DNA from: Sinomicrobium weinanense
GTDB lineage: Bacteria > Bacteroidota > Bacteroidia > Flavobacteriales > Flavobacteriaceae
Assembly (NCBI RefSeq): GCF_018863395.1
Contig: NZ_JAHKRR010000001.1
Location: forward strand, 1-64,000
Direction of reading: 5' to 3'
DNA length: 64,000 nt
The first letter of the stretch is position 1. Each line of letters opens with the position of its first letter. A model generated the notes under the pieces. That model saw only the letters and a program-made list of their open reading frames with translations, had not been told where the DNA came from and searched no databases. Shown in pieces: positions 231-59,679 of this stretch. The position numbers were made by a program, and so were the translations under genes.

Positions 231-273
231 TGATCAATATCATATTATTTTTATAAACCATTTAGCATCTTCG
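231..273 (+). promoter_or_regulatory. Crp/Fnr-type box TGATCAATATCA (231-242) with weak -7 octamer
   Basis: The 12-bp dyad fits TGAY-N4-RTCA and is symmetric over 14 bp (230-243). The octamer at the usual spacing is CATCTTCG (266-273), a poor match to TAnnTTTG. It lies upstream of the Crp/Fnr gene at 324, which suggests autoregulation. Confidence 0.6.
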
Positions 274-323
274 CATTTTATAATTACGCAGCATACTTTC
301 AGCCGGGGAAACAAAAGGCAATT

Positions 324-920
324 ATGATCACTACAGATTTATTACTGGATTTCGGGGCAAAATTGGTGTCATACGATAAAGGAGACCGGATATTCCTTGA
401 AAAACAAAGTGCACGGAACTACTACCAGGTACATTCCGGGGGTGTAAAAATGAACAATTTTAACGAGGAAGGAAAAGAATTCATACAGGGAATATTTCAG
501 GAAAGCGAGAGCTTTGGAGAACCCCCGTTGTTTATCGATGTGACCTACCCGGCCAATGCGGAAGCACTTTCAGATACATATATTTATGTACTCCCCAAAC
601 CCTTTTTTTTCGATCTGTTGAATACACATCCCGAAGAACATCTGAAAATTACGGATACCCTGGCCCGGAGGTTATACTATAAAGCCATCATGGCCAGCGA
701 ATTGTCCAGTCAGGAACCGGAACACCGTATATTACGTATCCTGGATTACCTTAAAAAACATGTATACGGATTGGAAGCACCTTTTTCCTTTAAAGTAAAC
801 CTCACCCGCCAGCAGATCGCAGACCTTACGGGCCTTCGTGTGGAAACCGTGATCCGTGCCAGCAAATGCCTGGAAAAGAAAGGGGCGGTAAAGATCTTAA
901 AGCGTAAACTCTACAGGTAG
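324..920 (+). CDS. Crp/Fnr family transcriptional regulator
   Basis: A 198-aa protein of usual Crp/Fnr length. Residues about 10-100 form the cyclic-nucleotide-binding-type beta roll, followed by the dimerisation helix and a C-terminal winged helix (about 150-198). The recognition helix reads VETVIR, with E174 and R178 in the positions that contact TGA half sites in Crp and Fnr. This fits the TGAY-N4-RTCA boxes across the window. It has a single cysteine (in SKCLE), so it cannot hold an Fnr-type 4Fe-4S cluster. It is therefore more like the Dnr/NnrR or cluster-free regulators, whose signal may be NO or redox. A box at 231 suggests autocontrol. It sits next to the nos operon, but specific targets are inferred. 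Confidence 0.9.
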   Translation: MITTDLLLDFGAKLVSYDKGDRIFLEKQSARNYYQVHSGGVKMNNFNEEGKEFIQGIFQESESFGEPPLFIDVTYPANAEALSDTYIYVLPKPFFFDLLNTHPEEHLKITDTLARRLYYKAIMASELSSQEPEHRILRILDYLKKHVYGLEAPFSFKVNLTRQQIADLTGLRVETVIRASKCLEKKGAVKILKRKLYR

Positions 921-928
921 CGTCATTA

Positions 929-971
929 TGACTTAGATCATATGCTGCCATAAAAACGGGCTGTACTTTTA
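929..971 (+). promoter_or_regulatory. Crp/Fnr-type box TGACTTAGATCA (929-940) with -7 TACTTTTA
   Basis: The dyad starts nine bases after the stop codon of the upstream regulator. The -7 octamer at 964-971 is centred 33 bp downstream. It would drive the 94-aa membrane protein at 995 with a short leader. Confidence 0.75.
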
Positions 972-994
972 TATCAAACATAAAAATACGGCTT

Positions 995-1279
995 ATGCAA
1001 CTCTATCAAACACTTTTTCTGAAATTCCGGGAGATGTATTACGCTTCCATTACCATAGGGATCATAGCGTCCAGTTGTATCGGCTCCATTGCGGCCATGC
1101 TTATTCTTATGAATGGTTACGGGATCTGGCAGATGTTACAGTTATTTCTCGTTGTAGCCGTGGCCATGGCGTATAATGCCACGGTCCTTGCCCAGTTGAG
1201 ACCGAAGTTCATTTTCAACGCATTGTTGATTAGCTTGTCCACCAGTATGATGGTCATTACCGGTTACTTGTTGTTTTAG
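995..1279 (+). CDS. Small three-helix membrane protein, unknown function
   Basis: A 94-aa protein with no signal peptide and three predicted membrane spans at about residues 18-38, 44-66 and 72-93. I recognise no catalytic motif and no heme-binding signature. It has its own Crp/Fnr box and -7 element just upstream, so it is probably induced with the respiratory genes nearby. The context suggests a role in low-oxygen or nitrogen-oxide respiration, but that is inference only. It could equally be a small accessory subunit or an assembly factor. Confidence 0.7.
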   Translation: MQLYQTLFLKFREMYYASITIGIIASSCIGSIAAMLILMNGYGIWQMLQLFLVVAVAMAYNATVLAQLRPKFIFNALLISLSTSMMVITGYLLF

Positions 1280-1353
1280 AAGGCTTCGGGCAACGCGGGG
1301 GACAGGACAAAAGAGTAGGGGGCGTTTTTATTGTACCTACGGATGCCGGTGAC

Positions 1354-4984: not shown

Positions 4985-5054
4985 GGGTTGATTATTTTTG
5001 GTCTGGTTCAGAGGAGGATGGGGCCTTCTGTGCAATTCCGGCCCTGCATCACAC

Positions 5055-11596: not shown

Positions 11597-11639
11597 TAAA
11601 GGTAGGAGGCGGGTTAGCGGGAAAATATGATTTCTGTCA
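11597..11639 (-). promoter_or_regulatory. Crp/Fnr-type box TGATTTCTGTCA (11628-11639) for the nos operon
   Basis: On the minus strand the -7 octamer is TACCTTTA (11604-11597), centred 33 bp from the box centre. It would start transcription about 25 bases before the cytochrome c ATG and thus drive the ten-gene nos-nad operon. Confidence 0.8.
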
Positions 11640-11756: not shown

Positions 11757-11799
11757 TGACTTAAGTCATGTTTTCCGCTTTGAGCGTCTTCTATATTTG
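11757..11799 (+). promoter_or_regulatory. Crp/Fnr-type box TGACTTAAGTCA (11757-11768) with -7 TATATTTG
   Basis: The box is a perfect palindrome over 14 bp (11756-11769). The -7 octamer TATATTTG at 11792-11799 is at the standard distance. The nearest plus-strand gene is the thioredoxin-like protein at 12031, which leaves a leader of about 225 nt. Confidence 0.8.
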
Positions 11800-12699: not shown

Positions 12700-12742
12700 T
12701 GATATTTATCATCTCCCGGGAACATATCAGTGCTGATATTTG
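12700..12742 (+). promoter_or_regulatory. Crp/Fnr-type box TGATATTTATCA (12700-12711) for the 595-aa protein
   Basis: The octamer at the fixed spacing is GATATTTG (12735-12742), one base off consensus. The ATG at 12772 follows about 30 bases later. Confidence 0.75.
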
Positions 12743-12771: not shown

Positions 12772-14559
12772 ATGATACACAACTTTCATATTCCCGTAAT
12801 GGGACTGGCCTATACGATCGATACCCCGCTGCGGGTGGCTTCTTATGGAATAGATTCGGTAATTTCTATTGTAGATGACGAACTTGCGGAAAAAATGAGG
12901 GCGTTTTTCTGTAAAAAATACAGTCTGCCCTACACCCCGATCCCGACAAAAATACAGGATTACCGGGCCCGGCGAATTACGGGCTATCTCGACCTGATGG
13001 ATAAACTGGTAAAGGAAAAGTTTAAAAAATTTTCCGAAGAGCTTTCCACGAACAGGCACGAACTTGAAAAATTTGTCACCATGCTTCCGAAAACATCGGT
13101 GATAAAGAAAAAACTGGAAAATCTTTCTTCCGACAGGTTTTTCGGCAGGGCCGGAAAGGTCATCAGGGACTACCTGTCTCCGGGAGCCATAGATGTGAAC
13201 ATTATGACGAAGGTCGATAAAACGAATTACCGGGGTAAAACAGCCCTGCCTTCCCTGTATAATGATGCCCATGCGGCTTTACGGGGATTTGCCAATAGCA
13301 CGCTTAATTCATCTTTAGTGCTCTCCGCCGGGATGAACCCTTCACTTTACAGCTATGTGGGCACTTTCAAAGATTTCTTTCCCGACCGGGAAGGTGTGCT
13401 GAAAAAGAAAATAGTGCTGAAGGTAAGCGATTTTCGTTCTGCCATGATACAGGGGCGCTTTCTGGCCAAAAAAGGGATCTGGGTCTCCGAATACCGTGTT
13501 GAATCGGGACTCAACTGCGGGGGCCATGCCTTCGCCACAGACGGGTTGCTTTTGGGACCGATCATGGAAGAATTTGCAGAACGACGGCAGGAACTCGCAA
13601 AAACAGCCCACGAATTACTGGTAAAAGCACTGGAAGATAAAGGCATCCGTGCCCCCGAATCGCCTATGGACATCCGTATCACCGTGCAAGGGGGAGTAGG
13701 GACTTTCGAAGAGCACGAGTTCCTGTTGCAACACTATAAAGCGGATTCCGTAGGCTGGGGGTCGCCCTTTTTGCTGGTTCCCGAAGCGACCTCCACAGAT
13801 AGGGCAACACGCAAACTGCTGGCCGGGGCCGGAGAGGACGACCTCTACAGGAGCAATATATCGCCGCTGGGCGTCCCCTTCAATACCGTAACCGGAACTA
13901 CGAACGATTATTTTAAGGCACAACGGATAAAAGCCAACAGGGCAGGGAGTTCATGCCCCAAAAAACTCCTGGCGCTCAATCCGGAGTTTGGTAAGGAAGG
14001 AATCTGTACGGCGTCGAGAAAATATCAGCAGGCCAAGTTAAAGGAAACAGAACCGGAACAGGGTGGGATCAGCCAGGAAATACTGAAACGCCGCAGGGAG
14101 ATAACCGCCAAATCCTGTTTATGCGTAGGCCTGGCTAATCCTGCCTATCTCGAAAAAAATATGGAGATCAGGGGAGAGCAACAGGGGGTGGTTATATGCC
14201 CGGGCCCTAATATCGCTTATTTTCATAAGGAGGTCTCGCTCCGGGAGATGGTCCGTCACATCTATGGTTACACTTCCGTACTGAAAAAAGAAAGCCACAG
14301 GCCCCACATGTTCATTAAAGAAATACAATTGTACATCGATTACCTGACCAAGGAGATCGAAGAAGAGACCGGCACCACAACAAGGGCCGGGCTTAAACGA
14401 TGGCATGCATTTAAGAACAACCTGTTATTGGGAATAGCGTATTATGAAGACCTGTTTACACGGACCTCCTTTTTCGGCAGTGACCGGGAAAGTATAAAAG
14501 CCCGGCTGGCCGGTCTTAAAGCCGGCGTAAGGGGAATTAAAATTCCCGAACCGGTTTAA
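12772..14559 (+). CDS. Unrecognised 595-aa protein with possible TIM-barrel flavoprotein features
   Basis: I do not recognise this family by name. It has no signal peptide or membrane span. The N-terminus IPVMGLAYTIDTPLRVASYG resembles the first strand and loop of barrel enzymes. ESGLNCGGHAFATDGLLLGP and ITVQGGVGT, then YKADSVGWGSPFLLVPEA, recall the nitronate monooxygenase pattern of glycine-rich strands that hold a flavin phosphate. The C-terminal part has several cysteines (SSCPKK, GICTAS, KSCLCVG, VICPGP) that could bind a metal or cluster. It has its own Crp/Fnr box and sits between a thioredoxin-like protein and RIC, so a role in nitrosative or low-oxygen metabolism is plausible but unproven. 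Confidence 0.8.
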   Translation: MIHNFHIPVMGLAYTIDTPLRVASYGIDSVISIVDDELAEKMRAFFCKKYSLPYTPIPTKIQDYRARRITGYLDLMDKLVKEKFKKFSEELSTNRHELEKFVTMLPKTSVIKKKLENLSSDRFFGRAGKVIRDYLSPGAIDVNIMTKVDKTNYRGKTALPSLYNDAHAALRGFANSTLNSSLVLSAGMNPSLYSYVGTFKDFFPDREGVLKKKIVLKVSDFRSAMIQGRFLAKKGIWVSEYRVESGLNCGGHAFATDGLLLGPIMEEFAERRQELAKTAHELLVKALEDKGIRAPESPMDIRITVQGGVGTFEEHEFLLQHYKADSVGWGSPFLLVPEATSTDRATRKLLAGAGEDDLYRSNISPLGVPFNTVTGTTNDYFKAQRIKANRAGSSCPKKLLALNPEFGKEGICTASRKYQQAKLKETEPEQGGISQEILKRRREITAKSCLCVGLANPAYLEKNMEIRGEQQGVVICPGPNIAYFHKEVSLREMVRHIYGYTSVLKKESHRPHMFIKEIQLYIDYLTKEIEEETGTTTRAGLKRWHAFKNNLLLGIAYYEDLFTRTSFFGSDRESIKARLAGLKAGVRGIKIPEPV

Positions 14560-14644: not shown

Positions 14645-14687
14645 TGACCTCTATCATAAAATAAGATACTTATAAAGGACAAATTTG
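14645..14687 (+). promoter_or_regulatory. Crp/Fnr-type box TGACCTCTATCA (14645-14656) with -7 CAAATTTG
   Basis: The octamer at 14680-14687 is at the fixed 33-bp distance. The likely target is the RIC gene at 14829, leaving a leader of about 135 nt. Confidence 0.65.
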
Positions 14688-15551: not shown

Positions 15552-15678
15552 AAATGGCCCCCGGAACCCGGGGAGGAGAGTCCGGCTTTTGTTTCCGCGG
15601 GAGTAGGGGTTTTGGCAGTATAGAGATAACACTGCTCGCATCTGTCCATATCCGTAGATGAAATTACGAAATATAAGC

Positions 15679-15721
15679 TGATAAATGTCATGTTATTTCC
15701 TGCTGCTGTTTGGCACCTTTG
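15679..15721 (+). promoter_or_regulatory. Crp/Fnr-type box TGATAAATGTCA (15679-15690) with -7 CACCTTTG
   Basis: The octamer at 15714-15721 is at the fixed distance. An in-frame TTG at 15710 would lie upstream of the transcription start, which supports the ATG at 15740 for ccoI. Confidence 0.7.
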
Positions 15722-18151: not shown

Positions 18152-18194
18152 TGATTTTAATCATGTTTTGCCCGGAAGACTACAGGTAATTTTG
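18152..18194 (+). promoter_or_regulatory. Crp/Fnr-type box TGATTTTAATCA (18152-18163) with -7 TAATTTTG
   Basis: The box is symmetric over 14 bp (18151-18164), and the octamer at 18187-18194 matches consensus. It gives ccoS-ccoNO-ccoQ-ccoP a promoter separate from ccoI. The transcript start would fall about 12 bases before the ccoS ATG. Confidence 0.85.
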
Positions 18195-18401: not shown

Positions 18402-18403
18402 AT

Positions 18404-26046: not shown

Positions 26047-26089
26047 CAAAAGTATAGATCAGGATTATTTCGGAATATGATATTTATCA
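26047..26089 (-). promoter_or_regulatory. Crp/Fnr-type box TGATATTTATCA (26078-26089) for hemN
   Basis: On the minus strand the -7 octamer is TACTTTTG (26054-26047), an exact consensus match at the fixed distance. It leaves a leader of roughly 12 nt before the hemN ATG. Confidence 0.85.
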
Positions 26090-26387: not shown

Positions 26388-26430
26388 TGACAAATATCAT
26401 GGTTCAGGAGGGGATTTCACTTCAATTTTG
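26388..26430 (+). promoter_or_regulatory. Crp/Fnr-type box TGACAAATATCA (26388-26399) with -7 CAATTTTG
   Basis: The octamer at 26423-26430 is at the fixed distance. It should drive the first YceI gene (26478) and perhaps the porin-like gene after it. The 26090-26387 stretch between this and the hemN promoter shows no gene. Confidence 0.75.
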
Positions 26431-30400: not shown

Positions 30401-30507
30401 GCTTTACATGCGATATTTCTCCAAAACAGGAAAAACAGACCCGGGACAACCGTATGGTTGTTCGGGGCCATATGCTTAAAAGGCTTTCCGGGTAACAATT
30501 TTAATGC

Positions 30508-30515
30508 TATATTTG
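30508..30515 (+). promoter_or_regulatory. Possible constitutive -7 element TATATTTG
   Basis: An exact TAnnTTTG match 106 bp before the kinase ATG at 30621 with no Crp/Fnr box in the region, so the sensor may be made constitutively. Confidence 0.4.
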
Positions 30516-30620
30516 AAAACTACGGATAAAGGGATATTAAGGAAGGTAATACCGGTTGCGAATGCACGGATGCTCCGTAAACTATGGCATCCGGTCCGGA
30601 GCCGCCTAATCGTTTTTATC

Positions 30621-31859
30621 ATGAAGTTTTTCCAGCAGGAAGAAGATATTTTCGGGATCCTTCTCGAAACCATTTCAGAGGGTATCCTGGTGGTGGACGG
30701 GAAAAAGAAGATCGTAGCCACCAATTCCCCGCTGGAAAGCATGTTCGGTTATGAAAAAGACGAGTTACCGGGTAAAAATATGGATATACTCATACCCGGT
30801 CAGTACCACCACAATCACAACGATCATTTTAAAAATTATTACGCCAAATCCAGCAAGCGTAAAATGGCGGCCGGGAGGAAACTGTGGGGCATCAAAAAGG
30901 ACGGTACCGAGCTCCCGGTCGAAATAGGGCTTAACCCCTTTACCGTTTACGGCAGGAAATTCGTGGTGGCCCTGGTCATGGACGTTACCGTAAGCCGTGC
31001 CGCCGAAAACAAGATCAGGCAGCTCAATGAAGAACTGGAGGAAAAAGTAGAGATCAGGACACAGGAACTGAAAGACTCCGTCAACCAGTTGCAAAAAGAG
31101 GTGAAAAGAAGAATAGAAGCGGAGAACAAGATCAGGGACGCCCTGCAAAAAGAGAAGGAACTCAACGAATTAAAGACCAAGTTCCTCTCCATGGTCTCCC
31201 ACGAATTCAAAACTCCCCTGAGCAGTATCCTGGTCTCTGAAACGCTTATCCGAAAATACACGGAAGCCGATCAGCAGGAAAAACGGGAAAAACACCTGGA
31301 GACCATAAAGAACAAGGTGCGTTATCTCAACAATATCCTGAACGATTTCCTTTCGGTGGAACGCATAGATTCCGGGAAGGAAAAGTATAAATTCGCTCCC
31401 TTCAATATCAGCAAGGTCTTTAACGAGGTTATTTATGATGCCAACATGCTGCTGAAGACCGGGCAACGGATCAATTTTCCGGAAGACATAGACAACTACA
31501 TGTTGTGCCAGGATGAAAAGATCGTGGAACTGATCCTCTCCAATCTTGTGAGGAACGCCGTAAAATATTCCCCGGAACATACGATAATAGATATCGGGGT
31601 AGGACAGGAAGGAGCGATGTTCGTATTCCGGGTCAAAGATAGGGGGATAGGTATCCCGGAAGAAGACCAGAAGCATATTTTCAGCAGGTATTTCCGGGCC
31701 AGGAATGCCATTAACGACCAGGGGATGGGTATCGGGCTCAATATCGTGAAGAGCCACCTGGAAAACCTGGGCGGAGAGATCGATTTTGTCAGTGAAGAAG
31801 GAAAAGGAACCACTTTTACGGTAAAACTACCCAATCATGAAAAAGATTTTACTCATTGA
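30621..31859 (+). CDS. FixL-like PAS sensor histidine kinase, copy 1
   Basis: A 412-aa soluble kinase. The ATG at 30621 (MKFFQQEEDIF) is chosen because the paralogue at 47065 begins identically and upstream codons look non-coding. PAS domain about 8-120: aligned without gaps to FixL from memory, H66 matches the proximal heme histidine and R86 the conserved distal arginine, with the shared ...RKDG/KKDGT segment after it. A coiled coil (about 130-180) leads to the HisKA box SMVSHEFKTPL (H194), N-box LSNLVRNAVKYSP, G1 DRGIGIPEED and G2 GMGIGLNIVKSH. It overlaps the response regulator gene by 23 bp. Confidence 0.9.
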   Translation: MKFFQQEEDIFGILLETISEGILVVDGKKKIVATNSPLESMFGYEKDELPGKNMDILIPGQYHHNHNDHFKNYYAKSSKRKMAAGRKLWGIKKDGTELPVEIGLNPFTVYGRKFVVALVMDVTVSRAAENKIRQLNEELEEKVEIRTQELKDSVNQLQKEVKRRIEAENKIRDALQKEKELNELKTKFLSMVSHEFKTPLSSILVSETLIRKYTEADQQEKREKHLETIKNKVRYLNNILNDFLSVERIDSGKEKYKFAPFNISKVFNEVIYDANMLLKTGQRINFPEDIDNYMLCQDEKIVELILSNLVRNAVKYSPEHTIIDIGVGQEGAMFVFRVKDRGIGIPEEDQKHIFSRYFRARNAINDQGMGIGLNIVKSHLENLGGEIDFVSEEGKGTTFTVKLPNHEKDFTH

Positions 31860-32886
31860 AGACGATTCCGTATTGCGGGAAAGTACGTCGGAACTGCTGG
31901 AACTATCGGGTTACGGGGTTTTAACGGCACCCAACGAAAAAAAGGGCATGTCCCTGGCCCGTGAAGAAAAACCGGATATCATCGTTTGCGATATTATGAT
32001 GCCCGAACTCGACGGGTATGGTGTGCTGGAAGCGCTTTCCGCTGATAAAAACACCGGGAAGATACCGTTTATCTTTCTCTCGGCAAAGACCGAACGAAAG
32101 GAAGTGCGGAAAGGGATGGACCTCGGCGCAGACGATTACCTGACCAAGCCCTTTGAAGAAACCGAACTCATAAGTGCCATAGAGAGCAGGCTGGCTAAAG
32201 TATCCCTCCTCGGGGAAGCCACTGAAGAACAAAAATCCCCCGAACCGGAAGACGATGACATCCGGAATATTAACGAACTCAAGAATTTTTTCCTGGACGA
32301 AGGGGAATGTTTCGGTTTTGAGAAAGGAGACGTTATCTATTCCGAAGGAAACCACTCCAACTATATTTTCCTGGTGGAAAGCGGTATGGTAAAAACACAT
32401 CGTATAGAAGAATACGGCAAGGAACTGATAACAAGCATAAGCCGGGACGACGATTTCTTCGGCTATTATTCCTTTACACAGAATATTCCTTATAAAGAGT
32501 CGGCAACCGCCCTGAAGCAAACAACCCTTTACGGATTGCGGAAAGATGTTTTTGCGGAAATACTAAAAAACAACCACAAGCTAACCATAGAATTGGTAGA
32601 ATTCCTTGCCGAGGACCTGTCCGGTGTCAGGGAACAGCTATTACAGATGGCCTACGGGTCGGTACGGAAAAAAACCGCAAATACCATACTGCGTTTTGTG
32701 GAAAAGCTACAGCGGCACGCCCGGAATGAGATCAGGATCTCCCGCAGCGACCTGGCCGGTGTAGCAGGTATAGCTCCCGAGAGTTTTATCCGTACCCTTT
32801 CAGAACTCAGGAAAGCAGGGCTTATTGCCATTGAAGGGCGAAATATCAAAGTGCTGGATATTGAGGGTTTGCAAAATATCGGTTAA
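31837..32886 (+). CDS. Response regulator with receiver fused to a Crp-type DNA-binding module, copy 1
   Basis: A 349-aa protein. Residues 1-120 are a receiver with acidic pocket E8-D9-D10, phospho-acceptor D52 (VCDIMMPELDG) and TKPF loop. About 140-245 is a cyclic-nucleotide-binding-type beta roll (FEKGDVIYSEGNHSNYIFLVESGMV in part), then the dimer helix. A Crp-type winged helix sits at about 275-345 with recognition helix PESFIRTL (E315, R319), suited to TGA half sites. In function it looks like FixJ and FixK in one chain. The kinase gene overlaps it, so the pair is certain. It probably reads the TGAY-N4-RTCA boxes. Confidence 0.92.
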   Translation: MKKILLIEDDSVLRESTSELLELSGYGVLTAPNEKKGMSLAREEKPDIIVCDIMMPELDGYGVLEALSADKNTGKIPFIFLSAKTERKEVRKGMDLGADDYLTKPFEETELISAIESRLAKVSLLGEATEEQKSPEPEDDDIRNINELKNFFLDEGECFGFEKGDVIYSEGNHSNYIFLVESGMVKTHRIEEYGKELITSISRDDDFFGYYSFTQNIPYKESATALKQTTLYGLRKDVFAEILKNNHKLTIELVEFLAEDLSGVREQLLQMAYGSVRKKTANTILRFVEKLQRHARNEIRISRSDLAGVAGIAPESFIRTLSELRKAGLIAIEGRNIKVLDIEGLQNIG

Positions 32887-33078: not shown

Positions 33079-33121
33079 TGATATTTATCATATTTTGTTT
33101 TCTTTGGCAGGCATACTTTTG
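33079..33121 (+). promoter_or_regulatory. Crp/Fnr-type box TGATATTTATCA (33079-33090) with -7 TACTTTTG
   Basis: The box and octamer (33114-33121) both match the strongest consensus. They drive the stress protein at 33244 with a leader of about 115 nt that contains an 11-bp inverted repeat. Confidence 0.85.
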
Positions 33122-34096: not shown

Positions 34097-34139
34097 TGAT
34101 TTTTATCATTTCAATTCACTTTTTCCAAAACTAAATTAG
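34097..34139 (+). promoter_or_regulatory. Crp/Fnr-type box TGATTTTTATCA (34097-34108) with -7 TAAATTAG
   Basis: The box starts ten bases after the stress protein stop; the octamer at 34132-34139 is at the fixed distance. Target: the Hsp20 gene at 34175. Confidence 0.75.
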
Positions 34140-36258: not shown

Positions 36259-36630
36259 GTGTTAAGACACTTACCTTTGTTTATTATACTTTCCCTGGTT
36301 GCGGAGGTCCTGGGTACCGTAGGAGAATCCGGGTCTTCCGTGTTTTTTGTCCCCATAGCCAATTACTTCCCGGATTTTCAATCCGTACTCGGTGTCACCG
36401 CCCTGTTTCACCTTGTCAGTAATGTTATCAAAACAGCTTTTTTCAGGAAAGGGATTGATAAGAAACTGGTCATAAACCTGGGGACCCCTGCCGTTATTTT
36501 TGTTACTGTCGGAGCCCATGAGAGCAAATTTATCGATACCGGGTTGCTTTCCCTGATCTTGGGAGCCTTTTTCATCGTGTTCAGTGCCTTGTTTTTGCTC
36601 ATTAAAAAATTACAAGTAACCCCGACGACT
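36259..36630 (+). pseudogene. Truncated TSUP (TauE/SafE) permease remnant
   Basis: About 124 codons from a GTG at 36259 match the N-terminal half of a Bacteroidota TSUP permease: SLVAEVLGTVGESGSSVFF, PIANYFPDFQSVLGVTALFH and NLGTPAVIFVTVGAHESKF. After LLIKKLQVT the homology stops and the frame runs on through a Crp/Fnr box into the dodecin gene. Normal members have about 240-260 residues, so the C-terminal half is missing. It is best read as a deletion remnant, not as a dodecin fusion. Confidence 0.7.
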
Positions 36631-36668
36631 AAAAATGCAATTGCCATATCTACATCCATCATGATGAC

Positions 36669-36711
36669 TGACAAATATCATTTTATGCAGGTCCGTTCAT
36701 ACTTAAATTGG
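36669..36711 (+). promoter_or_regulatory. Crp/Fnr-type box TGACAAATATCA (36669-36680) with -7 TAAATTGG
   Basis: The octamer at 36704-36711 is at the fixed distance. It lies inside the frame extending from the permease remnant, which shows that the dodecin ATG at 36742 is the true start. Confidence 0.7.
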
Positions 36712-36741
36712 TACGGATTATTAACCTTAAAATTTAAAATC

Positions 36742-36948
36742 ATGTCAGTCTTAAAAGTAGTAGAAATACTGGGAAATTCAGAAGAAAGCTGGGAAGATGC
36801 CGTTCAGCGGGTGGTAAATGAAGTGGCCAAAACCGTAAGGAATATCAGGTCGGTGTATATCCAGGATATGCAGGCCACTATCGAAGATAACCGCATTGCC
36901 GAGTACCGGGTTAATGCCAAGGTATGTTTTGAGGTTTTTGAAGAGTAA
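36742..36948 (+). CDS. Dodecin-family protein
   Basis: A 68-aa dodecin: MSVLKVVEILGNSEESWEDA, then VNEVAKTVRNIRSVYIQ and AEYRVNAKVCFEVFEE. Dodecins form dodecamers that store flavins or flavin-CoA. In well-studied members the residue after RNLR is the flavin-stacking tryptophan; here it is S37, so ligand stacking may differ or be lost. The ATG is fixed by the promoter just upstream. Regulation by the low-oxygen boxes is inferred. Confidence 0.88.
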   Translation: MSVLKVVEILGNSEESWEDAVQRVVNEVAKTVRNIRSVYIQDMQATIEDNRIAEYRVNAKVCFEVFEE

Positions 36949-39200: not shown

Positions 39201-39243
39201 CTAAAGTACCTGTATTCCGGGTGTTTCGGAATGATAAATATCA
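39201..39243 (-). promoter_or_regulatory. Crp/Fnr-type box TGATAAATATCA (39232-39243), leftward promoter
   Basis: On the minus strand the -7 octamer is TACTTTAG (39208-39201), at the fixed distance. It drives the 127-aa/LOG/transpeptidase unit. A second box for the opposite direction lies 13 bp away. Confidence 0.8.
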
Positions 39244-39255: not shown

Positions 39256-39298
39256 TGATATTAATCATTTATGCAGTGTGGAACAGCGCATACCTTTG
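39256..39298 (+). promoter_or_regulatory. Crp/Fnr-type box TGATATTAATCA (39256-39267) with -7 TACCTTTG
   Basis: The dyad is symmetric over 14 bp (39255-39268). The octamer at 39291-39298 matches consensus. It drives mlaE at 39318 with a leader near 15 nt. Confidence 0.85.
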
Positions 39299-45542: not shown

Positions 45543-45585
45543 CCAAAATAGGATGTGCCAACGAGGTATAAAATGATTAAAATCA
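45543..45585 (-). promoter_or_regulatory. Crp/Fnr-type box TGATTAAAATCA (45574-45585), leftward promoter
   Basis: On the minus strand the octamer is TATTTTGG (45550-45543), at the fixed distance. It drives the GH130-glycosyltransferase pair. Confidence 0.75.
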
Positions 45586-45605: not shown

Positions 45606-45648
45606 TGATATTTATCATGGAAATCGGGGACAACAGTAACTAACTTTC
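45606..45648 (+). promoter_or_regulatory. Crp/Fnr-type box TGATATTTATCA (45606-45617) with -7 TAACTTTC
   Basis: Faces right, 20 bp from the leftward box, with its octamer at 45641-45648. It drives the stress protein at 45683. Confidence 0.75.
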
Positions 45649-46942: not shown

Positions 46943-46985
46943 TAAAAATATAGCAAGATATCGGTTATCTATATGACTTATGTCA
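46943..46985 (-). promoter_or_regulatory. Crp/Fnr-type box TGACTTATGTCA (46974-46985), leftward promoter for thioredoxin
   Basis: On the minus strand the octamer is TATTTTTA (46950-46943), at the fixed distance. The plus-strand octamer position is a poor match, so the box probably serves thioredoxin rather than the kinase gene. Confidence 0.65.
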
Positions 46986-47064: not shown

Positions 47065-48303
47065 ATGAAATTTTTCCAGCAGGAAGAAGATATATTCAGT
47101 ATTCTTTTGGAAACCATTTCCGAAGGGATCCTGGTAGTGGACGGCAAAAAGAACATTGTGGCTATCAATTCCCCCCTGGAGGGCATGTTCGGGTATAAAG
47201 AGGACGAATTGCTGGGGAAAAGCATCGACATACTGATCCCCGATCACTACAAGCACAGCCACAACGAACATTTCAGGAACTATTATGCCAGGTCCAGCAA
47301 AAGGAAAATGGCTGCGGGACGGAACCTATGGGGTATACGGAAAGACGGGACCCAGCTGCCCGTGGAAATCGGTCTCAACCCGTTTACCATTTACGGTAAG
47401 AAGTTTATCATTGCCCTGGTGATGGACGTTAGCCTGAGCCGGGAGGCCGAAAACAAGATACGCCACCTCAATGAAGAGCTGGAAGAAAAGGTAAAGCTGC
47501 GTACCGGGGAGCTCCGGGAATCCGTAAAACAGCTCGAAAAGGAAATAAAACGGCGGAAAGATGCCGAAAACAAGATCAAGAATGCCTTGCAGAGGGAAAA
47601 GGAGCTCAATGACCTGAAGACCAAATTCCTGTCGCTGGTCTCCCACGAGTTTAAAACCCCCCTGAGCAATGTCCTGGTCTCTGCTACCCTGATCGGGAAA
47701 TACACCGAGGCCGAACAACAGGAAAAAAGGGAAAAACACCTGGAGACCATAAAGAACAAGGTGCGTTACCTGAACAATATTTTAAATGATTTTCTGTCGG
47801 TAGAACGGATAGACTCGGGCAAGGTACAGTATAAATACGCCCCCTTTAACATCAGCCGCGTATTTAACGAGGTGATCTACGATGCCAATATGCTGCTAAA
47901 GACCGGGCAGAAGATCAATTTTCCGAAGGATGTGGATGATTATATCCTCTTCCAGGATGAAAAAATACTCGAGCTTATCCTGTCCAACCTGGTGCGGAAC
48001 TCCATAAAGTATTCGCCCGAGCATGCAGTTATCGACATTGAAGTAAGACCAGGCCGGGAAATGTTTGTTTTTAGTGTCAGGGACCAGGGGATAGGCATCC
48101 CCGAAGAAGACCAGAAATATATTTTTACGCGCTACTTCCGGGCAAAAAACGCCCTGATAGACCAAGGTACCGGTATAGGGCTTAACATAGTAAAGAGTCA
48201 CCTGGAAAACCTGGACGGGGAGATCAGTTTTGTCAGCGAAGAAGGAAAAGGAACAACATTTACAGTCAAACTACCTAACCATGAAAACGATTTTGCTCAT
48301 TGA
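47065..48303 (+). CDS. FixL-like PAS sensor histidine kinase, copy 2
   Basis: A 412-aa paralogue of 30621-31859, aligned end to end without gaps as far as I checked by eye. The PAS domain again keeps H66 (KHSHNEHF) and R86 (MAAGRNLWG), the positions that match the FixL proximal heme histidine and the conserved arginine. HisKA: SLVSHEFKTPL with H194; ATPase boxes LSNLVRNSIKYSP, DQGIGIPEED and GTGIGLNIVKSH. It overlaps its response regulator gene by 23 bp, exactly as copy 1 does. Divergence is spread along the protein, so the duplication is not recent. Confidence 0.9.
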   Translation: MKFFQQEEDIFSILLETISEGILVVDGKKNIVAINSPLEGMFGYKEDELLGKSIDILIPDHYKHSHNEHFRNYYARSSKRKMAAGRNLWGIRKDGTQLPVEIGLNPFTIYGKKFIIALVMDVSLSREAENKIRHLNEELEEKVKLRTGELRESVKQLEKEIKRRKDAENKIKNALQREKELNDLKTKFLSLVSHEFKTPLSNVLVSATLIGKYTEAEQQEKREKHLETIKNKVRYLNNILNDFLSVERIDSGKVQYKYAPFNISRVFNEVIYDANMLLKTGQKINFPKDVDDYILFQDEKILELILSNLVRNSIKYSPEHAVIDIEVRPGREMFVFSVRDQGIGIPEEDQKYIFTRYFRAKNALIDQGTGIGLNIVKSHLENLDGEISFVSEEGKGTTFTVKLPNHENDFAH

Positions 48304-49330
48304 AGACGACCCCGTATTAAGGGAAAGCACGGCAGAATTGCTGGAGCTTTCGGGTTACAAGGTAATAACAGCACCCCATGGCAGAAAAGGAGTGACCCTG
48401 GCCAAAGAAAAACTCCCCGATATTATTGTGTGTGACATCATGATGCCCGAACTGGACGGGTATGGCGTGCTGGATGAATTGTCGGGCGATAAAAATACCC
48501 GGCAGATCCCCTTTATTTTCCTGTCGGCCAAGACCGAGCGCAGGGAGGTGCGTAAAGGGATGGACCTCGGGGCAGATGATTACCTGACCAAACCCTTTGA
48601 GGAAGCCGAACTTACCAGTGCCATAGAAAGCAGGCTGGCCAAAGTATCCATTCTGAAAGAAGTGGTTTCGGAGAACAACGCTTCCCGGGAACCCGAAGAC
48701 GATATCCTGAATATCAACGAACTCAAGAATTTCTTTTTCGACGAGGGGGAATATCTTACTTTCGAAGAAGGCGATCTAATTTATTCGGAAGGCAATCACT
48801 CCAATTATATTTTCCTGATCGAAGAAGGAATGGTAAAGACCCACAGGATCGAGGAATACGGCAAGGAGCTGATTACCAGTATCAGTAAAGACGACGACTT
48901 TTTCGGTTATTATTCCTTTATCCAGAATACCCCCTATAAAGAATCGGCCACGGCATTGAAGAAGACAAACCTGTACGGGGTGCGGAAAGATACTTTTGCC
49001 GAAATACTCCGGAGCAACCATAAACTGGCCATAGAACTGGTGGAATTTCTTGCAGAAGACCTGGCAGGAGTTAAAGAACAATTGCTGCAAATGGCCTATG
49101 GCTCGGTACGAAAGAAGACGGCAAATACCATACACCGTTTTGTGGAGAAATTACAAAGGCGTACGGACGAAGGTATTAGGATCTCCCGTAACGACCTGGC
49201 CAGCGTGGCCGGGATCGCCCCGGAGAGCTTTATCCGAACCCTTTCCGAATTCAAAAAGGAGGGCCTTATAGCCATAGAAGGCCGGAACATTAAGGTGCTC
49301 AATATCGAAGGCCTGCAGAACATGAGCTGA
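48281..49330 (+). CDS. Response regulator with receiver fused to a Crp-type DNA-binding module, copy 2
   Basis: A 349-aa protein, the same length as copy 1. Receiver with D9-D10 and D52 (VCDIMMPELDG), Crp-type beta roll (FEEGDLIYSEGNHSNYIFLI in part), and winged helix with the same PESFIRTL recognition helix, so both copies should read the same DNA. The ATG at 48281 matches copy 1. Sequence changes are mostly in the linker (about 120-140) and in the C-terminal wing. It may differ from copy 1 in signal threshold rather than targets. Confidence 0.92.
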   Translation: MKTILLIEDDPVLRESTAELLELSGYKVITAPHGRKGVTLAKEKLPDIIVCDIMMPELDGYGVLDELSGDKNTRQIPFIFLSAKTERREVRKGMDLGADDYLTKPFEEAELTSAIESRLAKVSILKEVVSENNASREPEDDILNINELKNFFFDEGEYLTFEEGDLIYSEGNHSNYIFLIEEGMVKTHRIEEYGKELITSISKDDDFFGYYSFIQNTPYKESATALKKTNLYGVRKDTFAEILRSNHKLAIELVEFLAEDLAGVKEQLLQMAYGSVRKKTANTIHRFVEKLQRRTDEGIRISRNDLASVAGIAPESFIRTLSEFKKEGLIAIEGRNIKVLNIEGLQNMS

Positions 49331-49434
49331 TTGATCTTAAAGTTAGGGGGAATGAGGTATTAAGTTATCGGGTTTATTCGTAAACCTGACGAACGGAATA
49401 ACCGGATAATCGGGGAGGGATTGTGTCTAAAATT

Positions 49435-49477
49435 GATATTTATCATGTTTTCTTTTTACACGGCGGTATACTTTTGC
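49435..49477 (+). promoter_or_regulatory. Crp/Fnr-type box TGATATTTATCA (49435-49446) with -7 TACTTTTG
   Basis: Identical box and octamer (49470-49477) to those before the paralogous stress gene at 33244, but with a leader of only about 15 nt. Confidence 0.85.
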
Positions 49478-50353: not shown

Positions 50354-50396
50354 TGACAAATATCATTTTTCCGGTGCGTGTAGTCGTGTACTTTAG
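50354..50396 (+). promoter_or_regulatory. Crp/Fnr-type box TGACAAATATCA (50354-50365) with -7 TACTTTAG
   Basis: The octamer at 50389-50396 is at the fixed distance. No protein gene follows for more than 1 kb on this strand; a hairpin terminator lies at 50536-50569. Confidence 0.75.
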
Positions 50397-50401
50397 TATC
50401 G

Positions 50402-50575
50402 TAAATAAGGCAAAGTTCTTTGATACCTGTTTTTCATTGACAGCACCATATCGGAGGAGGCCGGAAACATAAAGAATAAGGAGCGCATCTGGTTTTGGCA
50501 ATAAACTTTTGGCAACCCGTACCGGCCCTTCCGAAAGAAAAAGGCTGTTGAACAAAACGGCCTTTTTCTATCTTT
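50402..50575 (+). ncRNA. Candidate low-oxygen-induced small RNA
   Basis: The stretch between the promoter at 50354-50396 and the terminator at 50536-50569 would give a transcript of about 170 nt. I see no ATG-started reading frame of useful length in it. The start is inferred from the -7 octamer and the end from the hairpin; no family is recognised. It could instead be a decayed gene with a surviving promoter. Confidence 0.4.
50536..50569 (+). terminator. Intrinsic terminator
   Basis: AGAAAAAGGC (50536-50545) pairs perfectly with GCCTTTTTCT (50560-50569), loop 14 nt, followed by ATCTTTTTTC. The A-rich left side could also let it act leftwards. Confidence 0.75.
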
Positions 50576-50606: not shown

Positions 50607-50649
50607 TGATAAAAATCATTTTTTCCAGGAGATAAAAGCTATTCCTTTG
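50607..50649 (+). promoter_or_regulatory. Crp/Fnr-type box TGATAAAAATCA (50607-50618) with -7 TTCCTTTG
   Basis: The octamer at 50642-50649 is at the fixed distance. Downstream are only hairpins: a palindrome AACCGTTAACGGTT at 50691-50704 followed by TTT, and stems at 50942-50967 and 51126-51151. A second structured RNA is possible. Confidence 0.6.
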
Positions 50650-50834: not shown

Positions 50835-50990
50835 TCATCCCAAAGGGTTTTTCAGTTTCTTAAAAGTCATAAAGTCCATATTATACGGATAATCTCCGGG
50901 TAACAGCACGGACTGCTTTTTGAATTGAAGATCCCCTGGAGACAGGTCTGCCGAAGTGCAGGCCTGTTTCTTCACTACATTTTTCATCAT
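50835..50990 (-). CDS. Possible 51-aa protein, unknown
   Basis: A short frame starting MMKNVVKKQACTSADL and ending MTFKKLKNPLG. It has a protein-like composition but no known domain and no clear ribosome binding site or promoter. It overlaps a stem (50942-50951 with 50958-50967, one G-U pair) on the other strand. May be chance. Confidence 0.25.
   Translation of the reverse strand: MMKNVVKKQACTSADLSPGDLQFKKQSVLLPGDYPYNMDFMTFKKLKNPLG
50942..50967 (+). terminator. Hairpin with pyrimidine tail
   Basis: ACAGGTCTGC (50942-50951) pairs with GCAGGCCTGT (50958-50967), one G-U pair, 6-nt loop, followed by TTCTTCAC. A possible end for a transcript from the promoter at 50607. Confidence 0.4.
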
Positions 50991-51125
50991 AATAAATTGT
51001 CCCCGTTTATGCGGAGACAATAATCGGGGAAATCCGGTCGTGCATTCCGGAACATATAAATGAACCGGGATCCCTCGAAGAGGGCCGGCATTTAAGGTTT
51101 TGGGAATACGAAGATTTCCACGGAG

Positions 51126-51151
51126 AGAACAGGGACGCAAGTCCCTGTTCT
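51126..51151 (+). terminator. Strong hairpin with GCAA tetraloop
   Basis: AGAACAGGGAC (51126-51136) pairs perfectly with GTCCCTGTTCT (51141-51151) around GCAA, then TATTTTAAG. It resembles a rightward intrinsic terminator although no protein gene precedes it on this strand. Confidence 0.6.
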
Positions 51152-51170
51152 TATTTTAAGAAACTGTTTA

Positions 51171-51485: not shown

Positions 51486-51528
51486 TGATATTTATCATGG
51501 TTTTTGTTTCGGGGTACGATTACTTTTG
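51486..51528 (+). promoter_or_regulatory. Crp/Fnr-type box TGATATTTATCA (51486-51497) with -7 TACTTTTG
   Basis: Consensus octamer at 51521-51528. It drives the DUF302 gene at 51639 with a leader of about 100 nt. Confidence 0.85.
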
Positions 51529-52334: not shown

Positions 52335-52377
52335 TGATAAATATCATTTTTAACAGATGGAATGTGTGGTACTTTAA
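52335..52377 (+). promoter_or_regulatory. Crp/Fnr-type box TGATAAATATCA (52335-52346) with -7 TACTTTAA
   Basis: The octamer at 52370-52377 is at the fixed distance. It drives the stress protein at 52455. Confidence 0.8.
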
Positions 52378-54351: not shown

Positions 54352-54512
54352 AGCAACGGGGGATTTTATTTAATTATTCTCCTCGTTTCCGTTGCGCTTA
54401 AACGAGCGCTAGGAAAAGTAGGGACTTTATGGCTTGGCCAGCTATTGACGTGTAACAGGCCGCGAAGTCGGAGACGTTCGCCTGCAACACTTCGTAGAGT
54501 GGGGAGTGGGCA

Positions 54513-55049: not shown

Positions 55050-55121
55050 TTGTTTAATATTTTAAAGTTTCTGCAAAATTAGTATTAGACTATGATTAGT
55101 ACTTTGGAAAAAAACGACAAA

Positions 55122-55856: not shown

Positions 55857-56020
55857 CAGTTTTGTGATGTTGTTATATAATGACCACCAGCCCATAAATA
55901 TACTCAATCCCTCTTTTCCGTGCCAAGCATTCATTTATATGCACGTAAGATAGTATTGATGAAATATTTATATATTTAAGTATGTTTCTTTCAAAAGCCT
56001 ATAACTTAAAATAATTATCC

Positions 56021-57034: not shown

Positions 57035-57103
57035 ACGGAATTAATATCTTTCTAGTAGGTATTTCTATATAATATGCTATTTCCAATAATTATGCAGGTG
57101 CTC

Positions 57104-57119
57104 CTCTAGCGCTCGTTTG
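57104..57119 (+). repeat. Half of REP family 1, split by an IS
   Basis: CTCTAGCGCTCGTTTG equals the left part of the repeat at 54095-54110. The complementary half (CAAACGAGCGCC) is at 57801-57812, with the IS1380-like element between. Confidence 0.7.
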
Positions 57120-57120
57120 T

Positions 57121-57799: not shown

Positions 57800-57800
57800 G

Positions 57801-57817
57801 CAAACGAGCGCCAGGGG
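57801..57817 (-). repeat. Other half of the split REP family 1 repeat
   Basis: CAAACGAGCGCCAGGGG matches the right side of the copy at 54260-54276 (CAAACGAGCGCCAAGGG) with one difference. Confidence 0.7.
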
Positions 57818-57856
57818 CTTATGGAACTTATAGTTTCTGCTCATAGGTTAAAGCTA

Positions 57857-58219
57857 CTAAATTTTGTGTACGGTTGCGGAACTGGCGAGAGGGGAGAGAG
57901 AACGCGATACAATCGCGCACCAGCGGGGGCCATCGACCAGGAAACCGGTTCTCAAAAGGCTCTTAAACAGGTGTTTCGGGTTTTTAAGGGACTCCAGTTG
58001 GTGTATACTTTTTTCCAGTGCTTTTTTACCGGTTTTCAAAGCTGCCTCAAAGGCGGGATTTTCCATTTGGGGCGCCATAACGCTCACGGCCTGATATGAA
58101 ACAGAAACCATATGGAGTACGTAAAAAGTACATACTTTGTGCTTATACAGGTCTGTTGCATATTGCATGACCCTGTGCGCATTTTCAGAAAAATCGGTGG
58201 GTAATAAAATCCGTTTCAA
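57857..58219 (-). pseudogene. Truncated universal stress protein
   Basis: Starts as a normal UspA domain (MKRILLPTDFSENAHRVMQYATDLY, then FYVLHMVSVSYQAVSV) but homology ends near residue 96 (LLRTGFLVDG), at the REP family 2 repeat (57903-57917). The following residues are repeat-derived. The ATP-binding G-x2-G motif and the second domain are missing. It lies 33 bp after the 96-aa membrane gene, in the same orientation. Confidence 0.75.
57903..57917. repeat. REP-like palindrome, family 2, second copy
   Basis: CGCGAT-ACA-ATCGCG followed by CACCAGCGGGGG. Compared with 54335-54351 the stem bases changed in pairs (CACGAT/ATCGTG to CGCGAT/ATCGCG), keeping the hairpin. Confidence 0.55.
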
Positions 58220-58252
58220 TGTACTGCTTTTTTAATTTGGTAAGGTATAATA

Positions 58253-58543
58253 TCAGTTATCCGGGGATGAGCTCTTTTTTATAGAAATATTATAGAATAT
58301 AGCTATACACGCACCGGTTAGCCAGCCGAGTACAAAGGTTTCAATAAGCCCGATGCCCGCTTCCCAGAGCGAAATATCCATCCGGATAATGGCCGAGACA
58401 TCGATTCCATGCAGAAGACTGTTGATAAATCCAACCGTACCCTCATACCCTGTGGTGACCATGAGAAACGTACATCCTGTATAGAATAGTGTTCCGGTAA
58501 ACCCGCAGGCAAATCCGAATTTTTTAACATTGATCCGATCCAT
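58253..58543 (-). CDS. DUF5676-like small membrane protein
   Basis: A 96-aa protein with two membrane spans (about 10-30 and 62-86), containing GFACGFTGTLFYTGCTFLM, then WEAGIGLIETFVLGWLTGACIAIFYN. It fits a family of small two-span proteins, often near metal-efflux or stress genes, with no known biochemical role. It lies in a minus-strand series behind the SHOCT-type gene and the box at 58946. Confidence 0.75.
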   Translation of the reverse strand: MDRINVKKFGFACGFTGTLFYTGCTFLMVTTGYEGTVGFINSLLHGIDVSAIIRMDISLWEAGIGLIETFVLGWLTGACIAIFYNISIKKSSSPDN

Positions 58544-58662
58544 CTTTTTACTAAGTTTTTGACACGGTCAGGGACTGCCTTTTACGGCCCGGATTATAGT
58601 ACACGCATGCCAGGTTCCAAGCAACTTTTTCACTATCCTGCCTCATTGCAGATGAGAAGGGT

Positions 58663-58881
58663 TCAGGATAATGTTTTTTTAGTCTCTTCATACTCTTCTT
58701 TGCTGATCTCTCCTTTTGCATAGCGTTTTTTAAGGATCTCCAGGGGAGAATCTTTACTCCCACCGGTATTATTTCCGGTACTTTTGAGGTAGATCAGCCA
58801 TGCTGCTCCGACGATCAGGATTACCCAGAAGATCCACCACAGTCCGTGTATTCCCCATATATGCCAGGTCCAGTTATTCAT
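58663..58881 (-). CDS. Small membrane protein with SHOCT domain
   Basis: A 72-aa protein: one membrane span (about 12-32, GLWWIFWVILIVGAAWLIYL) and a C-terminal SHOCT motif LEILKKRYAKGEISKEEYEETKK. SHOCT is a short oligomerisation or binding motif found at the ends of many small proteins. It is first behind the Crp/Fnr box at 58946, so it probably belongs to the low-oxygen regulon. Confidence 0.85.
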   Translation of the reverse strand: MNNWTWHIWGIHGLWWIFWVILIVGAAWLIYLKSTGNNTGGSKDSPLEILKKRYAKGEISKEEYEETKKTLS

Positions 58882-59679
58882 TTTTTTTAGAGTTTTAGGA
58901 GATATATAACTGTGTAAGTTTATAAATAATAGGAGGCTGAAACAATGATTTATATCAGTTTATGATCCGGTCCGTGCGGTTCGCAAAGAAGACAATAACC
59001 TATCCGTGATAAGTTTACCATAGACACCCTTTTACACCAGGGCATACTTCAACTACTTTTTAAAGTGCAGCATTTATCCGAAAAAGGTATGGCCGGAGGT
59101 ACAGACTTCCGGCTTACGCTTTGGCAGGCTATAGCAAAATCCATGTCGATTAGCACCGTCTCTCAGAAGTATTGGCGGGAACAGTAACAGCAGTTGATTT
59201 GTCCCGGAGTACCCGGGAAAATATGTGGAGCTTATCTTTTCTCCGGGTGGGGAAGAAGTATTAATAGGTTTTCGGTACAGGTTTTAAGAGAATATATGGG
59301 TTTGAAGGTTTAAAATCCCATGCATGGAACGGCCCGGGAATTATCATCATTTCCGGGATGTCTCGACCAACAAATCACGTTGTTTGATACCACGGATTTT
59401 ATGTTGTATCTTGGGATAAACCCATCGTAAAGCAGGAGTGAGGTGTTGGGAATGAATGGTCGTGAAGGAACATGTTCAACAAAGAAAGAGATGGCTTTGA
59501 AAAACTGGAAAAGAGAAGTTTCTCTATGGTTGTTGCTCTTCCTGGTCAAAGTGGGTAATATTGTATTTTTCTTGTTGGCTCTTTTAAAGCTATGAACGCA
59601 GGGGCCTTCTTAAAAACCTTCCATAGGTCCGGTTTCAATCAAAAGATTTGGTATTTTTAAATTTTAAGCGTAATCATTT
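58882..59679. other. Long intergenic region with one promoter and possible gene remnants
   Basis: About 800 bp. Left end: the leader and promoter of the SHOCT gene. The stretch 59010-59188 on the plus strand reads as about 60 open codons (including TLWQAIAKSMSISTVSQKYW) with no suitable start, perhaps the tail of a lost gene. From 59190 to 59679 I see no convincing gene, hairpin or repeat. Confidence 0.45.
58915..58957 (-). promoter_or_regulatory. Crp/Fnr-type box TGATTTATATCA (58946-58957), leftward promoter
   Basis: On the minus strand the octamer is TAAACTTA (58922-58915), at the fixed distance. It drives the SHOCT-domain gene at 58881. Confidence 0.65.

Follow-up and report, generated by a model that had tools for sequence, protein, structure and literature searches.

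Which promoter signal, and which regulator, connect the cbb3 oxidase, heme and stress genes gathered at the start of contig NZ_JAHKRR010000001.1 of Sinomicrobium weinanense (GCF_018863395.1)? In the window that we analysed (positions 1-64,000, forward strand), Crp/Fnr-type boxes (TGAYN4RTCA) recur in intergenic DNA at a fixed distance of 33 bp, centre to centre, from an octamer resembling the Bacteroidota -7 element (TAnnTTTG). We hold this 33-bp promoter rule to be real with hardly any reservation. Moreover, we think it likely that the boxed promoters form a low-oxygen/stress regulon of class II type read by two kinds of protein, a single-domain FNR and a fusion of a receiver to a Crp module (hereafter REC-CRP).

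The exact box occurs 29 times in the window, against 3.34 expected from shuffled sequence (maximum 9 in 100 shuffles). Genome-wide it was found 358 times, compared with 135 for the reversed pattern, and the 29 copies of the window sit in 1.2% of the genome. Intergenic DNA is touched by 24 of the 29, while five (19680, 35661, 35868, 40695 and 44032) are wholly coding; this assignment takes hand-shifted starts for five genes (15764, 26028, 36745, 45520 and 46930), and with longest-frame starts boxes 36669, 45574 and 45606 would fall within open frames. When the octamer was scored on its six fixed bases, all 24 intergenic boxes had at least 4/6 at distance 33, 21 had at least 5/6 and 7 had 6/6, whereas the five coding boxes scored 2 at most. 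A preliminary description of this stretch, made by eye, had counted 24 boxes, called their density unusual and placed an octamer at a fixed 33 bp from each, and all three points were borne out. Its authors had proposed shuffled intergenic sequence as the check, and the claim withstood it: 500 dinucleotide shuffles of the intergenic DNA (with 50-bp margins) gave a mean of 0.12 box-octamer pairs at 4/6 or better, with maxima of 2, 1 and 0 at thresholds of 4/6, 5/6 and 6/6, respectively. Furthermore, with both orientations of each window box considered (58 oriented boxes), 21 reached at least 5/6 at distance 33 and between 0 and 4 did so at any other distance from 12 to 79, which excludes the worry, voiced in the same description, that the octamers had been over-fitted.

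The boxed promoters of the window, with CRP1 and one of the target proteins, are the following.

231..273, +, box with weak octamer CATCTTCG, upstream of CRP1
324..920, +, CRP1, a single-domain Crp-family protein, probably a target and not a general reader
929..971, +, box with octamer TACTTTTA, upstream of a 94-residue open reading frame of no known family
11597..11639, -, box with octamer TACCTTTA, upstream of a cytochrome c/nosZ gene run (NosZ of the Sec-dependent type)
11757..11799, +, box with octamer TATATTTG, upstream of a thioredoxin-family gene
12700..12742, +, box with octamer GATATTTG, upstream of a 595-residue protein, family unknown
12772-14559, the 595-residue target protein, directly behind the box, no family match above cut-off
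14645..14687, +, box with octamer CAAATTTG, upstream of a ScdA_N/hemerythrin (RIC-type) gene
15679..15721, +, box with octamer CACCTTTG, upstream of a heavy-metal P-type ATPase (CcoI-like)
18152..18194, +, box with octamer TAATTTTG, upstream of ccoNO-ccoP-ccoG-ccoH-ccoS (cbb3 oxidase)
26047..26089, -, box with octamer TACTTTTG, upstream of hemN
26388..26430, +, box with octamer CAATTTTG, upstream of yceI, in the same direction as HK_A and REC-CRP_A
33079..33121, +, box with octamer TACTTTTG, upstream of a universal stress protein
34097..34139, +, box with octamer TAAATTAG, upstream of Hsp20
36669..36711, +, box with octamer TAAATTGG, upstream of dodecin
39201..39243, -, box with octamer TACTTTAG, upstream of a 127-residue protein
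39256..39298, +, box with octamer TACCTTTG, upstream of mlaE
45543..45585, -, box with octamer TATTTTGG, upstream of a GH130 gene (start set by hand)
45606..45648, +, box with octamer TAACTTTC, upstream of a universal stress protein
46943..46985, -, box with octamer TATTTTTA, upstream of thioredoxin
49434..49476, +, box with octamer TACTTTTG, upstream of a universal stress protein
50354..50396, +, box with octamer TACTTTAG, no open reading frame of at least 60 residues below; candidate small RNA at about 50401-50570
50607..50649, +, box with octamer TTCCTTTG, no open reading frame of at least 60 residues below
51486..51528, +, box with octamer TACTTTTG, upstream of DUF302
52335..52377, +, box with octamer TACTTTAA (4/6), upstream of a universal stress protein
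58915..58957, -, box with octamer TAAACTTA (4/6), nearest start 371 bp off, doubtful

A start codon follows within about 220 bp of the octamer for 21 of these 24 boxes, the exceptions being 50354, 50607 and 58946. Respiratory, heme, redox or stress targets are clear for 12, or for at most 15 when CRP1, YceI and dodecin are added, so that the earlier statement that almost all targets are of this kind was too strong. The remaining boxes lead to proteins of 94, 595, 127 and 96 residues, to DUF302, MlaE and GH130, or, in two cases, to no open reading frame. A search of the 595-, 421-, 94-, 127- and 151-residue proteins against NCBIfam gave no match above cut-off. The frame at 36259-36948 fuses a TauE-like piece to dodecin with the boxed promoter in between; most likely a TauE remnant precedes a dodecin gene here, or the frame is artificial. 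As for the coding box at 44032, its sequence (TGACAAATATCA) is perfect and lies inside a glycosyltransferase gene with no octamer at 33 bp; the same 12 bases do have an octamer at 26388, 36669 and 50354.

The same geometry continues beyond the window. Between 64 and 105 kb of the contig, 9 of 24 oriented boxes have at least 5/6 at distance 33 and none or one at other distances from 26 to 40; this adjoining stretch of 40 kb carries, among others, universal stress genes, P-type ATPases, a ribonucleotide reductase and a PPDK-type gene. Between 105 and 364 kb, none of 34 oriented boxes qualifies. The last good site lies at 92,556, and 30 boxes up to 364 kb reach at least 5/6. The rest of the genome was covered by strict patterns only: the strict -7 consensus with a free gap of 8-38 gave 17 matches genome-wide, against 4 for the reversed control, and 10 strict matches have the exact gap, 9 of them within the first 81 kb of contig 1. 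In this genome, then, most of the regulon sits in one island of some 93 kb.

We found the rule in relatives as well. In a set of 40 genomes that includes this one (with G000, which lacks FNR, and G001-G004, of the same genus, among its members), the exact box-gap-octamer pattern occurs 250 times, against 8 for the reversed control, and is present in 32 of the 40. Among 150 free-spacing matches listed (more existed), 53 have the exact gap; other gaps average 3.2 matches and reach 8 at most. Because the reversed control also matches under free spacing (for example 14 vs 3 in G035), the signal resides in the exact gap. The sites are clustered in G003 and G016 and scattered in G022 and G024. Likewise, in 80 named loci with REC-CRP (taken as the best of 539; 855 kb with 340 boxes; some come from the same Sinomicrobium genomes as G001, G002 and G004), 274 sites have at least 5/6 at distance 33, compared with 3-19 at other distances from 14 to 59; a minor excess, of 14 perfect octamers, occurs at distance 34. 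That the spacing arose by chance could be argued from its having been scored by eye and from a few weak octamers, such as the 4/6 octamer at 266 that the preliminary description had itself singled out, yet the window shuffles and the recurrence of the same distance in other genomes lead us to reject this explanation, to which we give a negligible chance.

Universal stress proteins are the most regular target in these loci: in 80 of 80, such a protein is the longest frame within 350 bp past at least one boxed promoter, and it stands behind 122 of the 256 boxed sites that have a frame (among all 274). Other targets are a CcoI-type ATPase (10), proteins like the 94-residue frame of the window (10), a WG-repeat protein (8) and cbb3 oxidase (7), and 87 sites lead to proteins without a match in the window protein set. 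In the full-length loci, 67 forward sites fall in the 500-bp bin just behind REC-CRP, which gives the order kinase, REC-CRP, box, next gene.

Since sites were picked by box plus octamer, with the core TGAY-N4-RTCA fixed by the search itself, only the motif flanks are an independent signal. A T directly follows the box in 97% of 38 oriented sites from the first 124 kb and in 98% of the 274 locus sites, and a T-rich stretch comes next in both sets; the base before the box is A or C in 84% and 95%, respectively, with T there in 4-16%. The consensus is thus (A/C)TGAT-N4-ATCAT and not TTGAT-N4-ATCAA, the rhizobial anaerobox as given in PMC7888657.

Concerning the register, class II Crp/Fnr promoters carry their box at -41.5. 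In the promoter map of Flavobacterium psychrophilum, as presented in PMC9723704, the sigma-A octamer TAnnTTTG lies at -12 to -5, and a distance of 33 bp therefore puts the box centre at -41.5, the octamer position being taken from F. psychrophilum. This agrees with the class II geometry (box near -41) suggested earlier; the transcription start, placed then some 7 bp past the octamer, would by the flavobacterial map fall about 5 bp past it. The box position fits class II activation, while activation itself and the oxygen signal are what we infer from sequence. The window, the adjoining DNA and the relatives all lend strong support to the earlier claim of a regulon with its own binding motif and position rule. 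The boxes of the preliminary description stand, and what it lacked are the regulators, the continuation to 92.6 kb and a deletion of FNR.

The candidate regulators of the window, in addition to CRP1, are these.

15629..15649, -, remnant of the FNR gene, first 7 codons (MDRCEQC), at a deletion edge
30504..31859, +, HK_A, a PAS histidine kinase with a FixL/DosP-type putative heme PAS domain (His105, Arg125)
31837..32886, +, REC-CRP_A, receiver, cNMP-binding fold and Crp helix-turn-helix
47065..48303, +, HK_B, a paralogue of HK_A
48281..49330, +, REC-CRP_B, a paralogue of REC-CRP_A, 82% identical

In each of the two pairs the kinase gene overlaps the REC-CRP gene. By Pfam, the REC-CRPs consist of Response_reg, cNMP_binding and HTH_Crp_2, the last of which has 8 matches in the genome, 3 of them in the window. 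The kinase PAS domain finds FixL or DosP/YddU entries as its 13 best of 17 matches in the PDB and aligns without gaps to FixL across the heme histidine and the arginine, residues that act in heme sensing. All 93 aligned kinases keep the histidine and 86 of the 93 the arginine, the window's two and those of four other loci being counted twice. As in FixL kinases, a PAS domain with heme histidine and distal arginine precedes HisKA/HATPase, and oxygen sensing through heme bound by this domain seems to us a likely function. A kinase homologue (E 1e-60) accompanies REC-CRP in 91 of 95 loci, the misses being L237, which is cut short, and L056, L060 and L061. The receiver motif DIMMP is present in all 72 REC-CRP frames recovered from the 80 loci, in a search that demanded DxxMP. 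The FixJ-FixK arrangement, in which a separate response regulator activates fixK, is not what we see, as receiver and Crp module are one protein here; against the FixK model NF050806, REC-CRP scores 58 bits (E 9e-16), below the cut-off of 300.

Most relatives also carry a single-domain FNR with the recognition helix TATESxIR or nearly so, and the recognition helices of REC-CRP and FNR are alike (A[TP]E[ST]xIR). Of the traits of the FNR family, Pfam finds the cNMP-binding fold and the Crp helix-turn-helix in REC-CRP and CRP1, and the ExxxR recognition helix is seen in the FNR clade and REC-CRP. The pattern C-x2-C-x45-C-x52-C occurs in 25 of 26 FNR-clade proteins. Its CxxC and central cysteine align with solved FNR (the 5cvr/8qto family), while the third N-terminal cysteine is Asn in the aligned relative protein and another third cysteine is conserved instead. 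The four canonical cluster cysteines of E. coli-type FNR are therefore found neither in these proteins, which are probably iron-sulfur sensors, nor in REC-CRP, where the FNR-clade pattern occurs in 0 of 15 and a cysteine at the central column in 2 of 15. The best NCBIfam match of the G003 FNR is the Fnr model PRK11161, at 82 bits and so far below the cut-off of 228. In 22 of 26 FNR-clade genes a box lies 126-181 bp before the conserved domain, whereas any box within 900 bp was found for 3 of 41 other Crp paralogues and 1 of 15 REC-CRPs. In a tree of 91 entries, for which the best of the HTH_Crp_2 matches listed for the relatives were taken, the FNR clade and CRP1 need one label change each.

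Which of these proteins goes with the boxes can be judged from their distribution. We compared 149 Flavobacteriaceae genomes of 148 genera, calling REC-CRP at E 1e-50 among the 14 best first-look candidates per genome and FNR at E 1e-40, so that absences of either are approximate. The median number of exact sites is 12 in 46 genomes with both regulators (range 3-26), 9 in 31 genomes with REC-CRP only (2-24), 5 in 53 genomes with FNR only (1-15) and 0 in 19 genomes with neither (0-5, 11 of them at zero). Each single-regulator class differs from the last (Mann-Whitney 7e-9 and 3e-9, kinship ignored). Many genomes with neither regulator are small; among those of at least 3 Mb, the medians are 0.5 for neither (n=8) and 9 for REC-CRP only (n=29). 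That REC-CRP and FNR are the readers is, in our view, probable.

In S. weinanense the FNR gene itself has been lost. It is found in G001-G004 and not in G000, and synteny with G003 is broken at window positions 15554/15629, where 6,160 bp (G003 3263742-3269901), carrying a copper nitrite reductase gene (TIGR02376) and the FNR gene, correspond to 74 bp. The FNR start codon and six further codons are left at 15649-15629 (tblastn 100% over 7 residues, E 0.86, a match meaningful only together with the synteny break). Box 15679, which in G003 sits between FNR and the P-type ATPase gene, is unchanged. Two further G003 pieces, of about 3.0 and 6.2 kb, are gone between 11872 and 14763, and the blocks flanking the junction are 94.9 and 97.5% identical to G003. 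Because G001, G002 and G004 have FNR and the gene start is cut, this is a loss here and not a gain in G003, and it looks recent. At this place nosZ is kept and nirK is gone; this locus alone suggests a move away from denitrification steps.

The fresh look of this junction lends itself to another explanation, in which single-domain FNR is the sole reader, the boxes of this genome are relics of the recent deletion and REC-CRP controls something else; FNR-only genomes do have the code, and most FNR genes are boxed themselves. We consider this unlikely, as none of the 31 REC-CRP-only genomes is without exact sites, G012, with no FNR down to E 1e-10 beyond its own two REC-CRPs and CRP1, holds 10 of them, and at least one boxed promoter lies within the fetched flanks of each of the 80 REC-CRP loci.

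Several observations weigh against FNR and REC-CRP as joint readers. The loss of FNR here being recent, the intact boxes of this genome alone say nothing on REC-CRP. A divergent FNR could escape the E 1e-40 threshold in 29 of the 31 REC-CRP-only genomes, G000 and G012 having been checked to E 1e-10, and with 14 candidates scored per genome a REC-CRP may have been missed in some FNR-only genomes. G136 lacks both regulators and yet has 5 sites, and FNR, REC-CRP and boxes could covary through shared ecology, genome size or kinship. Moreover, no forward box stands directly upstream of HK_B/REC-CRP_B, the divergent REC-CRP loci L056, L060 and L061 have no kinase at E 1e-60 within their 1.5-kb flanks, and the tree allows REC-CRP to have arisen once or more than once (two label changes, one being possible). 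Finally, 8 of 10 CRP1 genes are likewise boxed within 900 bp upstream.

This last point, together with the place of CRP1 at the edge of the region, its kept ExxxR recognition helix and its presence in the FNR-less G000 and G012, could point to CRP1 (324-920), or a different Crp paralogue, as the protein that chiefly reads the boxes here. We regard this as improbable. At E 1e-39 or below, 10 of the 40 genomes have CRP1, compared with 32 that show the exact pattern; at E 1e-12 the count rises to 15, the extra ones being matches to other paralogues. In addition, G005, which has CRP1 and neither FNR nor REC-CRP, has no exact site, and both the scarcity of CRP1 and this genome disfavour CRP1 as a general reader.

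Based on these findings, we propose that at low oxygen the heme PAS domain would release O2 and the kinase would phosphorylate REC-CRP, whose dimer may then bind (A/C)TGAT-N4-ATCAT at -41.5 and aid RNA polymerase. The polymerase, with the main Bacteroidota sigma factor, would be recruited to TAnnTTTG 33 bp away. FNR, where present, might act likewise through its own cluster. In S. weinanense, after the FNR deletion, the two REC-CRP/kinase pairs would most likely be the readers. The boxes, their spacing, the domains, the residue conservation, the distribution and the deletion are observed; binding to DNA, the heme, the phosphotransfer, activation and the oxygen signal are predictions from domain identification.

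The same wiring might instead answer to nitric oxide or redox, or the unphosphorylated REC-CRP might be the active form. Nos genes and the RIC-type gene are among the targets, nitric oxide and carbon monoxide can bind to heme PAS domains, and sequence does not tell in which direction the kinase acts. Against this stand the FixL arginine kept in most kinases, the cbb3 oxidase with its maturation genes and hemN, which are typical low-oxygen targets, and the rise of cbb3 oxidase and heme genes under oxygen limitation in F. psychrophilum reported in PMC9723704. We see such a signal as a possibility of rather low probability. A term search of the main text of that paper found neither Crp nor Fnr mentioned.

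Rhizobia offer the closest comparison. According to PMC7888657, separate FixL, FixJ or FxkR, FixK and FnrN converge there on one box; the FixL-FixJ-FixK or hFixL-FxkR-FixK chain with FnrN resembles our system in its heme PAS kinase, response regulator, FixK, cysteine-cluster FnrN, single box and cbb3 oxidase. Unlike in rhizobia, the receiver is fused to the Crp module with no separate FixJ/FxkR step, the box has the ends (A/C)TGAT...ATCAT and a Bacteroidota -7 element, and universal stress genes recur most steadily among the targets in our loci; the chain would thus be shortened into two proteins.

Class II promoters of E. coli FNR have TGA-N6-TCA half-site spacing centred at -41.5. Our boxes share that spacing and centre, and the relatives' FNR shares CxxC and the central cysteine; the third cysteine differs, and the outer T/A of the box is missing here. 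DosR-DosS/DosT of mycobacteria is similar in its heme-based kinase, receiver regulator and Usp and Hsp20 targets, and unlike our system in box and promoter type, the DosR output being LuxR-type. PDB 2GAU, a Crp/Fnr-family protein of Porphyromonas, gave the FNR query its best match in the PDB, and no other Crp-family chain is among the 60 listed of 332 REC-CRP matches; 2GAU is a single chain of 232 residues, matched over the Crp part only. In the literature searched, which lacks most subscription journals, we found no description of the REC-CRP architecture or of this regulon, and searches for FNR or FixL in Bacteroidota yielded nothing pertinent. A MalR matrix from Bacteroides is used in PMC8510549 for the Crp/Fnr homologues of a Flavobacteriales metagenome-assembled genome, and its motif seems to differ from our box.

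On balance we favour, with some caution, a wider interpretation: Flavobacteriaceae may use a two-protein oxygen switch, in which receiver phosphorylation gates a Crp/Fnr module, interchangeably with an FNR of non-canonical cysteines on one rigid class II code, so that either could be lost without rewiring dozens of promoters, and in some lineages the code may also drive small RNAs beside the regulators. A large environmental family thereby gains a predictable promoter code (box, exact distance, -7 element) with likely regulators, and class II activation with the divergent Bacteroidota sigma factor becomes directly testable. The loss or swap of a sensor over fixed target promoters is a natural experiment.

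Regarding small RNAs, the stretch 50354-50570 (+) has a boxed promoter, no open reading frame of at least 60 residues and an intrinsic-terminator-like site at 50536-50569, which suggests a small RNA of about 170 nt. It recalls FnrS, the FNR-driven small RNA of E. coli, and Sinomicrobium pectinilyticum (L167 and L058, one genome) retains its box, octamer and terminator. Folding of 50401-50550 alone is ordinary (z -1.1), and Rfam gave no match at gathering score at the frame-less boxed promoters of the window and seven loci. A model of a candidate RNA tail (R1) gave 22 matches (E up to 0.1) over the window and the 80 loci together, none of them in the window, so that the RNA at 50401-50570 does not belong to that family.

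Eight other loci (L183, L184, L209, L213, L216, L229, L237 and L239) carry, some 1.35-1.5 kb past REC-CRP, a boxed promoter that lacks a long open reading frame. After it comes a conserved unit, a stretch containing ATTAA plus a terminator hairpin, present one to three times; 6 of 11 pairs of the stem change on both sides. With a model derived from 12 copies, matches at E up to 1e-4 are limited to the same 8 of 80 loci, with weaker ones in L227 and L178. A second stretch without long open reading frames, with two boxed promoters, lies at 12850-13890 of L001 (contig 76850-77890) and partly matches window 50923-51157 (69%).

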